Below are positions 10,356-48,642 of a stretch of DNA of 64,000 bases, one piece after another (the stretch's first letter is position 1; the number at the start of each line of letters is the position of its first letter). The translations under genes were made by a program, and so were the position numbers. Location: contig CAIQHB010000037.1 of NCBI GenBank assembly GCA_903871465.1, forward strand, positions 62,001 to 126,000, given 5' to 3'. Below the pieces are notes generated by a model, which was not told where the DNA came from, searched no databases, and worked only from the letters and a program-made list of their open reading frames with translations. Origin of the DNA: an uncultured Methanosarcinales archaeon (lineage in GTDB: Archaea; Halobacteriota; Methanosarcinia; Methanotrichales; Methanotrichaceae).

Positions 10356-10961
10356 ATGATGCGATTGACGGCCTACCTTTCCGGCAGAGTTCAGAGGGTA
10401 GGTTACCGGGCTAAATTAGTCACTCTGGCCCGTAACCTTGGTCTGGTGGGGTTCGTCCAGAACCGTCCTGATGGTCGGGTATTGGTGATCGCGGAGGGCG
10501 ACAAAGATATCGTAGAGAAGTTCGCTTCAGCCATCCGGATAGAAAATGCCCTGATCAATGTGGAAATGGCCGATGCCAACTATTCGAATGCATCAGGAGA
10601 GTTTTCTCTCTTCCAGAAAGTCACTGGCCCTGACGAGGTCGGCGAGCGATTAGATGAAGGAATTGAGATTTTAAAGAGTATGCTGACAGGCATCAACAGT
10701 CTCACTAAAATCACTCAATCAGGCTTTGAGGGCTTAAACTGCAAGATGGCCAAGATGCTTGACAAGCAGGATGAAACCGTAGGCGAGATTAAGGGATTGA
10801 ACTGCAAGATGGACACGATGCTCGACAAGCAGGATGAAACCGTAGGCGAGATTAAGGGATTGAGGCGGGACTTGAAGGACCACATGGACCAGAGGTTTGA
10901 GTCCATCGAGGGCGAGCTGGCAGAGATCAAATCCGCGCTGCGAGTTAGGGGCATAATTTGA
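10356..10961 (+). CDS. Acylphosphatase with repeated coiled-coil tail
   Basis: About 201 aa. Residues 1-90 are an acylphosphatase domain (SGRVQRVGYR, then FVQNRPDGRVLVIAEG); the catalytic Arg (R18) and Asn (N36) are present, although the usual GRVQGVG loop reads GRVQRVG. The C-terminal half is a predicted coiled coil containing two near-identical 21-residue units (GLNCKMxxMLDKQDETVGEIK) followed by a degenerate third (GLRRDLKDHMDQRFESIEGE). Most acylphosphatases are ~90 aa, so the tail is extra and probably mediates oligomerisation or anchoring. I chose the ATG pair just before the domain over a longer frame that overlaps the upstream gene. Confidence 0.82.
   Translation: MMRLTAYLSGRVQRVGYRAKLVTLARNLGLVGFVQNRPDGRVLVIAEGDKDIVEKFASAIRIENALINVEMADANYSNASGEFSLFQKVTGPDEVGERLDEGIEILKSMLTGINSLTKITQSGFEGLNCKMAKMLDKQDETVGEIKGLNCKMDTMLDKQDETVGEIKGLRRDLKDHMDQRFESIEGELAEIKSALRVRGII
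10731..10856 (+). repeat. Two 63-bp tandem units inside the acylphosphatase gene
   Basis: Units 10731-10793 and 10794-10856 are nearly identical at DNA level (a 35-base block around GACAAGCAGGATGAAACCG is exact), so the duplication is recent or kept alike by recombination. The length is a multiple of three, so copy number can change without a frameshift. Confidence 0.9.
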
Positions 10962-28804: not shown

Positions 28805-29350
28805 TTGTCGATGATGCAATTAAGGTCATATTTAGCTATCAGCATTCTGATACTGGCCACGGCCGCAGCAGGCTCCGTCAGTGCAGCGGACAGCGGAACG
28901 AAGGTTCTTCTGGAGACAAGCCAGGGCAATATCACAATACAGCTCTACAGCGACATGCCCATCACTACTGGCAACTTCCAGAGTCTGGTGGAGAAAAAAT
29001 TCTATGACGGTTTAATCTTCCACAGAGTCATCGACGGATTCATGATTCAGGGCGGAGACCCGGAGGGAACAGGAATGGGCGGCCCCGGTTATGAGATCAA
29101 GGATGAGTTCACCGACCACAACAGGAACGATCGCGGCACCATAGCCATGGCCAATTCCGGGCCGAATACAGGCGGCAGCCAGTTCTTCATCAATCTGGTG
29201 AACAACAACTTCCTGGACAGCAAGCATCCGGCATTCGGCAAAGTCATCGAGGGATTGGATGTGGTGGATGCCATCGGCAAGGTTAAGACCGACTCCAGCG
29301 ACCGGCCGCTTACAGAAGTAAAGATAATCAAGGCCACGATTATCTCTTGA
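28805..29350 (+). CDS. Exported cyclophilin-type peptidyl-prolyl isomerase
   Basis: A 181-aa protein: signal peptide (~1-28, ISILILATAAAGSVSAA), then a complete short cyclophilin domain: FHRVIDGFMIQGGDPEGTG with the catalytic Arg, MANSGPNTGGSQFFINL and HPAFGKVIEGLDVVD. It should catalyse proline isomerisation outside the cytoplasm. The stop overlaps the longer frame of the next gene, a cytosolic paralogue, so these are a tandem duplication with different destinations. Confidence 0.93.
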   Translation: MSMMQLRSYLAISILILATAAAGSVSAADSGTKVLLETSQGNITIQLYSDMPITTGNFQSLVEKKFYDGLIFHRVIDGFMIQGGDPEGTGMGGPGYEIKDEFTDHNRNDRGTIAMANSGPNTGGSQFFINLVNNNFLDSKHPAFGKVIEGLDVVDAIGKVKTDSSDRPLTEVKIIKATIIS

Positions 29351-29373
29351 AGTGGAAAGGAGATGACTTGACA

Positions 29374-29853
29374 ATGGCAGAAGGCACAACCGAGACAGGT
29401 AAGAAAGTATTGCTCAAGACCAGCATGGGCGACATCATCCTACAGCTTTGCGAGGACATGCCCATAACCGCCGGCAACTTCCAGAAGCTCGTGGAGAAGG
29501 GCTTTTACGACGGCACAGTCTTTCACCGCATCATCGCGGACTTCATGATTCAGGGCGGAGACCCGACGGGAACGGGCTGTGGGGGCCCTGGCTACGCCAT
29601 CAAGGACGAGTTCACCCGCAAGAACAGGAACGACCGCGGCACCATCAGCATGGCCAACGCCGGGCCGAACACAGGAGGCAGCCAGTTCTTCATCAATCTG
29701 GTGAACAACAACTTCCTGGACAGCAAGCATCCGGTCTTTGGCAAAGTGGTCGAAGGCCTGGATGTGGTGGACGCCCTGGGAAAGGTGAAGACCGGAGCCA
29801 ATGACAAGCCAGTGAAAGAGGTCAAGATAGAGAGCGCGAAAGTTATGGCTTGA
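29374..29853 (+). CDS. Cytosolic cyclophilin-type peptidyl-prolyl isomerase
   Basis: About 159 aa, no signal peptide. Active-site elements FHRIIADFMIQGGDPTGTG, MANAGPNTGGSQFFINL and HPVFGKVVEGLDVVD are complete. The ATG at 29374 has a GGAGATGA element seven bases upstream; a TTG at 29347 overlaps the upstream stop and is less likely. Very similar to the exported copy just upstream over the whole domain. Confidence 0.93.
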   Translation: MAEGTTETGKKVLLKTSMGDIILQLCEDMPITAGNFQKLVEKGFYDGTVFHRIIADFMIQGGDPTGTGCGGPGYAIKDEFTRKNRNDRGTISMANAGPNTGGSQFFINLVNNNFLDSKHPVFGKVVEGLDVVDALGKVKTGANDKPVKEVKIESAKVMA

Positions 29854-30591: not shown

Positions 30592-30912
30592 TGTAGATCA
30601 CATTCTTTTCTAAACTAGAGTCGTGGTCTGCCGTGTTCTGCTGGGGGAGTCGTGACCCCCAACATTGCTTTTTTATAGCAGTTGCTTTATTCCTCAAAGC
30701 CGCTTGGCTAAGACAACTTGACCCTAACGGGCCTGCCGTGTTCATTTTTTCTTAGCTTCCTATCCCTTACTTAGGCCTTCGTGAAGGGCCATGGGATCTT
30801 ACATTATGAGGATTACCTCAGCAGATATAAGCTTTTCCCCTAAACTTAGCACAACAAGTCAGATCCCAGTCCATTAACTCGTCTACTGGTTTTTTTTAAA
30901 CCTAGTTTCTAA

Positions 30913-31066
30913 CATGTTTTAGATGATTTCATGCATGTTTTAGATGATTTCATACATGTTTTAGATGATTTCATGCAGGTTTTAGATGATTTCATGCAGG
31001 TTTTAGATGATTTCATGCAGGTTTTAGATGATTTCATGCATGTTTTAGATGATTTCATGCATGTTA
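30913..31066. repeat. Seven-copy 21-bp tandem (iteron-like) array
   Basis: Seven back-to-back 21-bp units start at 30913, 30934, 30955, 30976, 30997, 31018 and 31039, with a partial eighth (CATGTTA) after. Each contains GTTTTAGATGATTTCATG; the first bases vary between CAT and CAG, and unit 2 ends ATA. There are no spacers, so it is not CRISPR. A stop codon directly precedes it in the only frame without stops, so it is not a coding repeat. Such arrays are typical of replication-initiator or partition-protein binding sites. Confidence 0.9.
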
Positions 31067-31488
31067 GCTAGCTTCTTGCGCTGACACAACAAAGCATTTA
31101 ATATTTAATATAGTTGATGCTTTGCCTATGCTGCCTACAAATAAAGACAAATGTTTGATATCTGTTCAGTGCTTATACGTTTTTCGAGCAGGCAGCGAAA
31201 GTGATGTACATTTTTGTACATTATATACGATAAAAGAAGTAATTAAAAGAAGATTTTAGCTTGATACCACCACTACAATGCAATTTCTTCAGCTTTATTC
31301 TGCTTCCTTTTCCCAGTAGACACACGCATGAGAAATTGCATACAATGCCTGGCGCCACTCTGTAGTTTATTTCCTTTTCGCCTTGCTCTCACTTCGACGG
31401 CTTCCATTTAATAGCATGGTCTTATTCAACTTTTTTTGAAATATACCGTTATCGATAATCTGAATCAGATACCATAGGACGCATCGAT

Positions 31489-31504
31489 AATATGGATCCA
31501 TATT
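31489..31504. repeat. Perfect 16-bp palindrome upstream of thrS
   Basis: AATATGGATCCATATT reads the same on both strands. It is preceded at 31484-31490 by ATCGATAA, also found at 31451-31458. It lies ~145 bp before the thrS start and could be a dimeric regulator site. Confidence 0.6.
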
Positions 31505-31649
31505 GGCTCATCAACGAAGTATTCCAGCCGATGCCATTAACGGTAATGAAAAAGACTTGATCCACCTAGCATCCTAGTATCTGCATGGTCCTTATGGAAA
31601 CATTGAATTACATCCACTTTTATCTCTTTTGTCGGTCAGGTGACCTCAA

Positions 31650-33515
31650 TTGCAATTGCTCCTAATCCACTCTGATTTTATTGAATTCGAGGCCAAGCGG
31701 CCCACGAAGATGGCGGAAGAAGTCGAAGAATCGGCCAAGAAAGGCCGCCTGGAAGAGGCGCTCTGCGCTTTCATTGCCGTGGAGAAGTTCGACGAGGACG
31801 ATCCCGATGCGGTTATAGCCGAGGGCGCAAAGCAGGTAGCGGATGTGGCCGGGCAGGTCAAGGCCCACCGCATCATGATCTATCCTTATGCCCACTTAAG
31901 CCCCAATCTATCCTCGCCTGCGACTGCCATCAAAATCCTCACAGGCATGGCAGAGACGCTCTCCGGGGACTATGAGGTCATGCGGGCTCCCTTCGGCTGG
32001 TACAAGTCCTTCACCATAAGCTGCAAGGGCCATCCGCTCTCCGAGCTCTCCCGATCCATAAAGCTCGGGGAAGGGGAAGTCGTCTCCCAGGCGCTCAAGT
32101 CCGAAGCAAAAGCTGTCTCCTACTGGAAGGTTCTGGATCTGGACGGCAGCCTCGTCGACATAGACAAGTTCGACTTCCAGGGACACGATAACCTGCAGAA
32201 GTTCGCCAACTACGAGATCACCAAGGCCAGAGCCGTGGACAGGGTTCCGCCCCACGTAGAGCTCATGAGGCGCTTGGAGCTGGTCGACTACGAACCTGGT
32301 TCCGATTCGGGCAACATGCGCTACTACCCCAAGGGCAGGCTCGTCAAGTCCTTGCTAGAGAACCTTGTCCTGGAGAAGGCCACGGACATGGGTGCCATGG
32401 AAGTGGAGACGCCCATCATGTACGACATGGAGCACCCCACACTGAAGAAGTACCTGGACCGCTTCCCGGCCCGGCAGTACCAGATCGAGTCGGACAAGAG
32501 GAAGCTGTTCCTGCGCTTCGCGGCCTGCTTCGGCCAGTTCCTCATGGGCCACGACATGTCCATCTCCTACAAGTCCATGCCCCTGAAGATGTTCGAGATC
32601 ACCAGATACAGCTTCCGGCGCGAGCAGCGCGGCGAGCTGGTGGGCATTCGCCGTCTGCGGGCCTTCACCATGCCAGACATGCACACCCTGACCCGCGATA
32701 TGGCATCCGCCACAGAGGAGTTCAGGAAGCAGTACCTGGCCAGCATCTCCATCTTGAAGGACGTGGGTCTGGACCTGGAGGACTACGAAGTGGCCATCAG
32801 GTTCACCAAGGAGTTCTACGGCGAGAACCGCGAGTTCATCGAGGGTCTGGTGGACATCGTCAAGAAACCTGTGCTCATCGAGATGTGGGATGAGAGGTTC
32901 TTCTATTTCGTGCTCAAGTTCGAGTTCAACTTTGTAGATACCATGGACAAGGCCAGCGCTCTCTCAACTGTGCAAATCGATGTCGAGAACGCGGAGCGCT
33001 ACGACATCACCTACATCGATGAAGCCGGAGAGAAGCAGCGGCCCATACTGCTCCATTGCTCGCCTTCCGGTGCCATCGAGCGCGTCATGTTCGCCCTCCT
33101 GGAGAAGGCGGCCCGACTGTCGGAAGAGGGCAAGCTACCCATGCTGCAGACCTGGCTCTCGCCCACCCAGATCAGGGTTATACCCGTGGCAGAGCGCCAC
33201 CAGGCCAGAGCTTTCGAGATTGCAGGAGAGCTGGGATTCCGAACGGACGTTGATGACCGGGATGAGACAGTAGGCAAGAAGATCCGTGATGCAGGCCGCG
33301 AGTGGATACCCTATGTGGCAGTGATAGGAGATGAGGAACTCAGTTCGGGGCAAATGACGGTCACCATCCGGGCCGATTCCACGCCCAAGAATGCGGCCAA
33401 GTCAAAGATGACGGTCGAATACTTGAGGAAGAGGGTCTCGGCAGAGACCGCCGGGAAGCCCTGGCGCAGATTGGCTATGTCCATGAAAGTCTCGGAGCGA
33501 CCCAAGTTTATCTGA
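31650..33515 (+). CDS. thrS: Threonyl-tRNA synthetase (archaeal type)
   Basis: A 621-aa synthetase. Residues 1-~140 are the archaeal editing domain related to D-aminoacyl-tRNA deacylase ([25 protein letters not shown]), which removes mis-charged serine. The class II core carries [14 protein letters not shown], with Zn-binding Cys, and motif 2 [19 protein letters not shown]; the C-terminal anticodon domain follows ([15 protein letters not shown]). The start is a TTG with GGTGA upstream, matching the family N-terminus. Confidence 0.95.
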
Positions 33516-45687: not shown

Positions 45688-47166
45688 ATGATGGAAGCCA
45701 ATAATTATTCACTACGGCTCCCAGAAAGATGGACATGGATAAAAGTTGGAGATATCAATAACAAATTACAGTATGGAAGCTCAGAGAAGGCAAATGGTGA
45801 TTACTCCGGCATTCCTGTCATTCGAATGGGAAATATTAAGGATAGTAAAATAATTTATGATAATCTAAAATATTTCTCATTAGACTCGCCGGATTTGGAC
45901 GAAATCTTGCTCGAAGATGGAGATGTTCTATTTAACAGAACTAATAGTCCAGAATTAGTTGGAAAAGCAGCAGTCTATAGAAATAGAAGCAATTACCCTA
46001 AAGCCGTGTTCGCTTCCTATTTAATTAGGATAAAAGTAAAAAAAAGTTTCTACGATCCTGAACTGCTATCTCTTTTTATAAACTCCTTTTATGGCCGCGA
46101 ATTCATTAAATCAGTCGTATCGCAAATGGTAGGGCAGGCTAACGTAAATGGCACAAAATTAGCTGCAATGCCTATCCCCCTCGCACCTCTAGCTGAGCAG
46201 CACCGCATCGTCGCCCGCATCGAGGAGCTATTCAGCCGCCTGGATGTCGGGGTCGAGGCGCTGCAGAAAGCCAAGGCACAGCTCCAGCGCTACCGTCAGG
46301 CAGTGCTCAAGGCAGCTGTGGAGGGCAGGCTCACTGAGGAGTGGCGGAAAACGCATCAGAATGTTGAGCTTGCGGAGACGCTGTTAGAGAGCATTTCCAT
46401 CAAGGAGGCAGAGCTGCCAGATGAAAAAAACCGACCCCAATTGCCGTATGGGTGGGCATGGGCAAGTTTAGAGCAGCTATCTGAACAGATTGTAGATTGT
46501 TTACATTCCACGCCAGAATTCGCATCTAATGGCAAATACTGTATTGATACAACGTGCATTGAGCCAGGAAGAATTCTTTTCGATAAAGCTCGTTTTGTTT
46601 CAGAAGAAATTTATAGAGAGCGGATCCGAAGATTAAAACCTGAAGCAGGTGATATCTTATTTTCTAGAGAAGGCACAATAGGTACTGCAATTACCGTTCT
46701 CAATAATGTGGAATTCTGTCTGGGGCAAAGGATGATGATGTTCAGACCATCAGATAGTATTATTCCCGCATATTTCATGTGGGCTATGCTTTCAGACACA
46801 TTCAAAAAACAATGGGAACCTAAAGTTACAGGAACAACTGCGCCTCATGTAAATATTCGAGACTTAAGAGTAATGGTTTTGCCGCTTACTTCCGTAGCCG
46901 AGCAGGTTGAAATTATTGACGAAATCGAAAGCAAACTTTCATTAACGGATGAAATTGAGCGAATCATAGGACAAAACCTCATACGAGCAGTGCGCTTCCG
47001 CCAATCCATCTTAAAATTGGCCTTCGAGGGCAGGCTCGTTCCCCAGGACCCCAGCGACGAGCCCGTCTCCGTGCTCCTGGAGCGAATTAAGACAGAAAAG
47101 GCAAAAGAATCTCCAAGAAGAGCCAGAAGAAACAACAGCATTCAGCAGATGAGGCTGATCCAATGA
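45688..47166 (+). CDS. hsdS: Type I restriction enzyme S (specificity) subunit
   Basis: A 492-aa subunit giving sequence recognition. TRD1 (~1-165, ending LAAMPIPLAPLAEQHRIV) and TRD2 (~250-410) are each followed by a conserved helical spacer (EELFSRLDVGVEALQKAKAQ and RFRQSILKLAFEGRLVPQDP). The target domains are AT-rich while the spacers are GC-rich, the expected footprint of TRD exchange. The stop overlaps the hsdM start (ATGA). Confidence 0.92.
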   Translation: MMEANNYSLRLPERWTWIKVGDINNKLQYGSSEKANGDYSGIPVIRMGNIKDSKIIYDNLKYFSLDSPDLDEILLEDGDVLFNRTNSPELVGKAAVYRNRSNYPKAVFASYLIRIKVKKSFYDPELLSLFINSFYGREFIKSVVSQMVGQANVNGTKLAAMPIPLAPLAEQHRIVARIEELFSRLDVGVEALQKAKAQLQRYRQAVLKAAVEGRLTEEWRKTHQNVELAETLLESISIKEAELPDEKNRPQLPYGWAWASLEQLSEQIVDCLHSTPEFASNGKYCIDTTCIEPGRILFDKARFVSEEIYRERIRRLKPEAGDILFSREGTIGTAITVLNNVEFCLGQRMMMFRPSDSIIPAYFMWAMLSDTFKKQWEPKVTGTTAPHVNIRDLRVMVLPLTSVAEQVEIIDEIESKLSLTDEIERIIGQNLIRAVRFRQSILKLAFEGRLVPQDPSDEPVSVLLERIKTEKAKESPRRARRNNSIQQMRLIQ

Positions 47167-48642
47167 CCGAAGAATCCTCCATAGTCCAGCGGGTCTGGAA
47201 CTACTGCAACGTCCTCAGGGACGATGGCGTGAGCTACGGCGACTACCTGGAGCAGCTCACTTACCTCCTCTTCCTGAAGATGGCAGATGAGCAGACCAAG
47301 CCACCGATCAACAAGCCATCCACCATACCAAAAGGCCTGGACTGGCAGAGCCTCCAGCCGGAAAAGGGAGCAGAACTTGAGGAGCAGTACCGCCACATCC
47401 TCGAATCGCTTGGCAAAGGGCCGGGAATGCTGGGGGTGATCTTCCGCAAGTCCCAGAACCGCATCCAGGACCCCGCGAAGCTGAAACAGCTCATAGACCT
47501 CATCAACGGCGAGACCTGGATAGGGTTGGACATCGACATCAAGGGCGCGATCTACGAGGGCCTGCTGGAGAAGAATGCAGAGGACGTGAAAGGCGGCGCG
47601 GGGCAGTATTTCACACCCAGGCCATTGATAAAGGCCATTGTGGAGGTCATCAGGCCCAAGCCCGGAGAGACCGTCTTTGATCCGGCCTGCGGTACAGGCG
47701 GGTTCCTCCTGGCGGCCTATGATTACGTCGAGAAGAAATACCCTATCGATAAGGAGCAGAAGAAGGCGCTGAGGTTCGAAACCCTGGGAGGCAAGGACGT
47801 GGTCGATGGAGTGGTCAGGCTCTGTGCCATGAACCTCTTTCTGCACGGCATTGGAGGCGAGGAGAGCCCCATCGAGGTCGGAGACTCCCTGCTATCGGAC
47901 CCGGGAAAACGCTACAAACTGATTCTCACCAATCCGCCTTTTGGAAAGAAGAGCAGCATCACCATAACGAACGGCGAAGGGAAGGCCGATAAAGAATCGC
48001 TGACCTATAACCGCCAGGACTTCTCAGCCACAACCCTCGAACAAGCAGCTCAACTTCCTCCAGCACGTGAAGACCCTGCTTGAGATAAATGGCCGCGCGG
48101 CAGTAGTTGTGCCTGATAATGTTCTATTCGAAGGCGGAGCGGGCGAGACTGTGCGCCGCAAGTTCCTCCTGGAGTGTGATGTTCATACTCTGCTGCGCCT
48201 GCCTACAGGCGTCTTCTACGCCCAGGGGGTGAAGGCCAATGTGCTCTTCTTTGATAAGAAGCCAGCCAGCGATCGGCCGTGGACTGAGAAGCTCTGGATC
48301 TACGACCTGAGGACTAACAAGCACTTCACCCTCAAAACCAATCCGCTCAAGCTCGATGACCTGCAGGACTTCATCCAATGTTACAACCCTGAGAACAGGC
48401 ATCAGAGGGAGGAGAGCGAGAGGTTCAAGGCCTTCAGCTACGAAGAGCTGGTGAAGCGCGATAAAGCCAGCCTGGACATTTTCTGGCTGAAGGACGAAAG
48501 CCTGGAGGACTCGGATAATTTGCCTGCGCCGGAGGTGCTGGCGGCGGAGATTGTGGAGAGCCTGGAGACGGCGCTGGGTGAGTTCAGGGCGATATATGAA
48601 GAGCTGGGGAGCAGGGCAGGACAGGCCGAAGGCGGAAAATAG
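47163..48642 (+). pseudogene. hsdM: Type I modification subunit gene (hsdM) with frameshift
   Basis: An N6-adenine methyltransferase subunit split by a +1 shift. The first frame (47163-48083) has SYGDYLEQLTYLLFLKMADE, the SAM motif DPACGTGGFLLAAYDY (~174-189) and catalytic NPPFGKK (~257-263). It then misreads after YNRQDF; the correct continuation (LQHVKTLLEINGRAAVVVPD and on) lies one base away and is open to 48642. An extra C in the CCC run at 48034-48036 explains it: removing one C restores SNKQLNF. If real, the modification activity is lost while hsdR is intact. It could also be a sequencing error or a phase-variable site, though the run is short. Confidence 0.85.

Follow-up and report, generated by a model that had tools for sequence, protein, structure and literature searches.

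Do seven 21-bp units, repeated head to tail on the chromosome of a methanogenic Methanothrix archaeon, mark the origin or centromere of an integrated plasmid, as the original prediction proposed, or did they arise in another way? The array is flanked by a cyclophilin gene (29347-29853) on one side and by thrS (31650-33515) on the other; positions are those of the window, i.e., the whole stretch of 64,000 nucleotides that was analysed (Table 1). In our reading, to which we give a probability of roughly 55%, the units form a minisatellite of recent making (a short, non-coding 'satellite'), and they probably serve neither replication nor partition.

Table 1 Features of the interval between the cyclophilin gene and thrS, in window coordinates
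Feature	Position	Strand	Basis or remark
Accessory segment	29847-31585	.	In G013, the spacer flanked by these genes shows no similarity
Orphan gene, 216 aa	29941-30591	-	Single relative found, next to dnd genes on another contig of Methanothrix
49-aa ORF (MKSSKTC)x7, putatively coding	30909-31058	-	Fills the array exactly
Tandem array, seven 21-bp units plus 7-bp stub	30913-31066	.	TRF and direct reading
27-bp stretch identical to the TFS/PCNA junction (presumed PCNA promoter region)	31096-31122	-	Identity to G000:C56:126944-126970
ParE/RelE-like toxin gene relic	~31350-31584	-	DNA similarity; broken by a stop and frameshifts

The description of the array as seven spacerless head-to-tail units with few substitutions was borne out. 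TRF reported a period of 21 at 30913-31065 (7.3 copies, 96% match, 0 indels, score 278) with the consensus CATGTTTTAGATGATTTCATG, and by direct reading full units start at 30913, 30934, 30955, 30976, 30997, 31018 and 31039, with no spacers between them; the number of units is that of the assembly. A stub, CATGTTA (31060-31066), follows right after unit 7. Two unit positions vary, namely position 3 (T/G), where G is found in the contiguous block of units 4-6, and position 21 (G/A), where A is found in unit 2. The best TRF score in 2000 Markov-simulated stretches of 1.6 kb, modelled on the local composition with the array itself left out, was 60, and the array is therefore not a product of chance; head-to-tail, near-identical short units beyond chance expectation make it a minisatellite by form. 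The surroundings are AT-rich, as predicted, with a GC content of 30% in the array and 38% at 30592-31649, compared with 52% in the window.

The unit is confined to this place. In a search of the 3.13-Mb genome at ≤3 mismatches, which the original prediction had suggested as a check, it was found at seven places, all inside the array. Its 18-bp core at ≤2 mismatches occurs in two of the 26 genomes of the genus, this genome and, as an isolated match, G019; as an array it is present in one Methanothrix genome and absent in the 25 others. A two-unit pattern had no exact match in viral_contigs or in genome_contigs, although these may lack records closely related to the genome of the window, and a literature search yielded no account of this array. 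The original prediction had counted the same array in many species as a point against itself, and we find it in one genome only.

Non-ORF arrays of this strength are rare in the part of the genome that was scanned. TRF listed 27 rows in 464 kb (21 stretches, including the window), of which five lie outside ORFs of ≥60 aa: this array and four rows scoring 50-52. One of the other repeats in the window, a 63-bp unit in 2.1 copies (10729-10863), lies within a 258-aa ORF. That no other non-ORF array exceeds a score of 52 indicates that slippage arrays are rare here, which counts against a minisatellite. Non-ORF arrays are, on the other hand, found within the genus, since 9 of the 29 TRF rows in 400 kb of G001 lie outside ORFs. 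Two of the G001 arrays (L134 1620-2106 and 4045-4535) have a 156-bp unit in 3.1 copies each and probably belong to the 156-nt satellite family of M. soehngenii that is described, next to many short-unit satellites in Methanosarcina, in the excerpted text of PMC6749651.

The interval that holds the array differs among the genomes compared. In G013, the distance between the cyclophilin gene and thrS is ~0.4 kb, and similarity to the window ends at 29846 and restarts at 31586; in G016, two different ORFs occupy the gap; and in the loci of G001, G002 and G003 no cyclophilin gene was found within ~4 kb upstream of thrS. Most other thrS loci compared were too short to show the presence or absence of the cyclophilin gene. 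Because of these differences, the gap is a variable site, at which the window carries ~1.7 kb of accessory DNA. The segment as DNA had no match in plasmids or phages. A 33-bp stretch in it (30812-30844) shares 88% identity with sequence ahead of gyrB (G000:C46:55388-55420). Both may represent one type of promoter, and the stretch is oriented towards the orphan gene as its counterpart is towards gyrB. Pfam named chromosomal genes and type I restriction subunits among the 24 window ORFs scanned, next to unnamed ORFs; the gene of the type I methylase (HsdM) is seemingly split into two overlapping ORFs (47163-48083 and 48067-48642), perhaps by a frameshift.

The neighbors of the array within the segment are a decayed gene and an orphan. 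The 1-kb gene desert of the original prediction holds for intact genes, but the broken toxin gene lies inside it. This relic matched intact loci in G008 and G017 at the DNA level (E 1.1e-7 and 7.2e-6; 2e-9 and 1e-6 in a second search), whereas at the protein level alone the match was weak (E 0.006), and the intact relative itself barely reaches the Pfam ParE_toxin cut-off. For the small ORF that adjoins the intact relative, no supported counterpart was found in the window (E 1.3 or worse). The adjoining orphan gene is present as predicted and occurs in two of the 237 genomes of the class, this one and G007 (41% identity). Its product matched nothing in Pfam, NCBIfam, PADLOC or PHROGs and had no relatives in viral_contigs or plasmids; genome_contigs contained one, apparently this same relative, on RPOO01000074.1 of Methanothrix sp. 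bin.308. The structure prediction, from an alignment of two sequences, reached a mean pLDDT of 41. On the G007 contig (C88), DndC and DndD scored above the curated cut-offs and DndE just below; downstream of the orphan relative come first a small ORF, Cas2-like by weak PADLOC matches, and then dndCDE (L091 3681-4834).

A minisatellite would have started from a 21-bp stretch in this decaying accessory DNA between the cyclophilin gene and thrS. Replication slippage or unequal recombination may have multiplied the stretch, and two kinds of substitution would have followed so far, one of them spread across three adjacent units. The near-perfect copies, the abrupt ends, the clustering of one variant in neighboring units and the presence in a single genome fit recent slippage, and a variable locus with a toxin relic suits such a history as well. 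What we observe is the array, its confinement to this genome, the variability of the site and the decay next to it; that the array arose by slippage, is recent and lacks a function we infer. What slippage does not explain is a neighbor of the array.

This neighbor, 29 bp from the array, is an exact 27-bp copy of a stretch between the end of the transcription factor S (TFS) gene and the start of the PCNA gene, both named by Pfam. Its downstream side, as judged from PCNA, faces left, into the array, and the copy comprises the promoter part alone, without TFS codons. We infer the promoter role from the place of the stretch at PCNA and from its conservation. At ≤3 mismatches, its 23-bp core was found at 23 places in 21 of the 26 genomes of the genus, i.e., at 20 TFS/PCNA junctions, on two plasmid-like contigs and at this locus; a 25-bp version searched for class-wide occurred in 21 of 236 genomes, all of this genus. 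Across 19 distinct PCNA sites, which were picked by their match to the core, the core is better conserved than its flanks, which diverge, and a different spacer separates TFS and PCNA on the G002 chromosome and in G004, G007, G019 and G023. The motif was absent from viral_contigs. In L036, L042 and L046, the element lies at ~2045-2071, ~2035-2059 and ~2007-2031, respectively. A sigma-70 scan is not meaningful for archaea. This side finding could matter in its own right: a copy of an element kept over ~24 bp at PCNA in most genomes of the genus lies beside the array, and further copies, which include the TFS 3' end, lie on two plasmid-like contigs. Should the element control replication or the cell cycle, it would give access to the way in which archaeal plasmids couple themselves to replication of the host.

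The two contigs, G002:C84 and G003:C78, have 4.2 kb in common at 75% identity and both encode an AEP-TOTE primase, G003:C78 additionally ParA; we call them plasmid-like from this gene content, and neither shows a terminal overlap as a sign of circularity. On both, the last TFS codons accompany the motif, and the primase operon begins 80-83 nt downstream of it with a small gene. The arrangement resembles an attachment site, or else a promoter that was captured; for attachment sites in archaea, the excerpted text of PMC8371274 gives lengths of 8 to >100 bp. At our locus, the motif was considered as the attachment site of an integrated element and rejected, as there is no second copy at the borders of the accessory segment, the contig (C37) carries a single copy at ≤3 mismatches, and no integrase was found among the 24 ORFs scanned. 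A third contig of the genus, G013:C65, has the primase without the motif. The 8000 bases compared of the second G001 contig are identical to plasmid NC_015430.1 of Methanothrix soehngenii GP6, which identifies the genus as Methanothrix. The plasmid primase had partial matches alone in PLSDB, at <60% identity, and no relative in viral_contigs.

These contigs bear on the main rival of a minisatellite, in which the array is what remains of the binding sites of a former plasmid. These would have been iterons, the operators of a replication operon or a centromere on an element that integrated here and has since decayed, with Rep, Par or a regulator once bound to each unit two helical turns apart. 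The 27-bp stretch common to the array's surroundings and the upstream region of the plasmid-like primase operons speaks for such a relic, as do the toxin relic and the orphan gene in the segment. We nevertheless regard it as unlikely: no such array is present on G002:C84, G003:C78 or the GP6 plasmid, the plasmid primase is without a relative in this genome, and neither an initiator gene (Rep or Cdc6) beside the array nor ParA/ParB-like genes alongside it, nor an integrase, was found by Pfam among the 24 window ORFs scanned. An operator with an internal palindrome was also rejected, since 39% of shuffled units had an arm as long. Contigs C39 and C56 carry the two Cdc6-like genes of the genome, and a chromosomal origin at this locus was rejected on these grounds. 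The proposed origin or centromere has thus found no backing here, and the head-to-tail 21-bp form, which had suggested initiator or partition sites, is one that a minisatellite is expected to show equally. The other half of the integrated-plasmid proposal fared better, because the variable locus, the toxin relic, the orphan gene and the 27-bp piece common to two plasmid-like contigs support accessory, possibly once mobile DNA.

The promoter copy gives some room to readings in which the array is expressed, and the first of these, a translated repeat peptide, appears improbable to us. Leftward transcription from the PCNA-type promoter copy would yield the minus-strand (MKSSKTC)x7, whose ATG lies 37 nt downstream of the end of the copy, compared with 25 nt at PCNA. 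Both variable unit positions are synonymous in this frame, which counts against a minisatellite, and Borgs, according to the excerpted text of PMC9879509, have small proteins that consist largely of tandem repeats. However, with two variable positions alone, selection cannot be demonstrated, so the synonymous pattern is weak evidence; a frame on the plus strand is open as well, and there the substitutions replace amino acids. The AGGAGG-like stretch that precedes PCNA is absent before the ORF, and the peptide has no homologue.

A regulatory RNA containing the repeats, transcribed leftward from the same promoter copy and acting as a leader or sponge, would draw on the copy and its orientation too, and we consider it slightly less probable still. 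The minus-strand RNA folds somewhat better than shuffled sequences (z -2.2), but tandem repeats may outfold shuffles trivially, and the same holds for the plus-strand DNA (z -2.6). Rfam named no family in the window save two tRNAs, and no homologues were found. Just as doubtful is a scenario in which a Borg-like tandem-repeat process on the Methanothrix chromosome made a new 49-residue (MKSSKTC)7 peptide under the captured PCNA promoter copy, in a genus whose plasmids would also borrow that promoter to tie genes to host replication.

Three known systems come close to the array. Plasmid iterons and partition-site arrays are direct repeats of ~20 bp in several copies, AT-rich and intergenic, and the array resembles them in all of these points; unlike them, it has no initiator or partition gene found nearby, and the three plasmid or plasmid-like contigs of the genus are free of such arrays. 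The tandem repeats of Borgs, the elements of Methanoperedens, are similar too. The excerpted text of PMC9879509 describes these repeats as recently formed, A-enriched and often accompanied by flanking partial repeats; its examples have units of 18-21 nt and six to eight copies, and some are intergenic. Our array matches in unit length and copy number, in its intergenic position, in the 7-bp stub as a partial repeat, in the A-richness of one strand of the unit (a count by eye gave 10 A in 21 for the minus strand) and in a unit length divisible by three with an open frame. It departs from the Borg repeats, as that excerpt defines them by perfect units without SNPs, in that four units deviate from the consensus at two variable positions; moreover, housekeeping genes of a chromosome surround it, neither a Borg nor Methanoperedens is involved, and it is a single array and not a pervasive feature. 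The closest counterparts are the prokaryotic satellites of Methanosarcina and Methanothrix soehngenii which, in the excerpted text of PMC6749651, have a short unit, head-to-tail arrangement, short total length, non-coding or repeat-coding character and species-specific sequence. All of this holds for the present array, which is ordinary as such and differs from those satellites in nothing essential; what distinguishes it is its one unexplained neighbor, the promoter copy that adjoins it.
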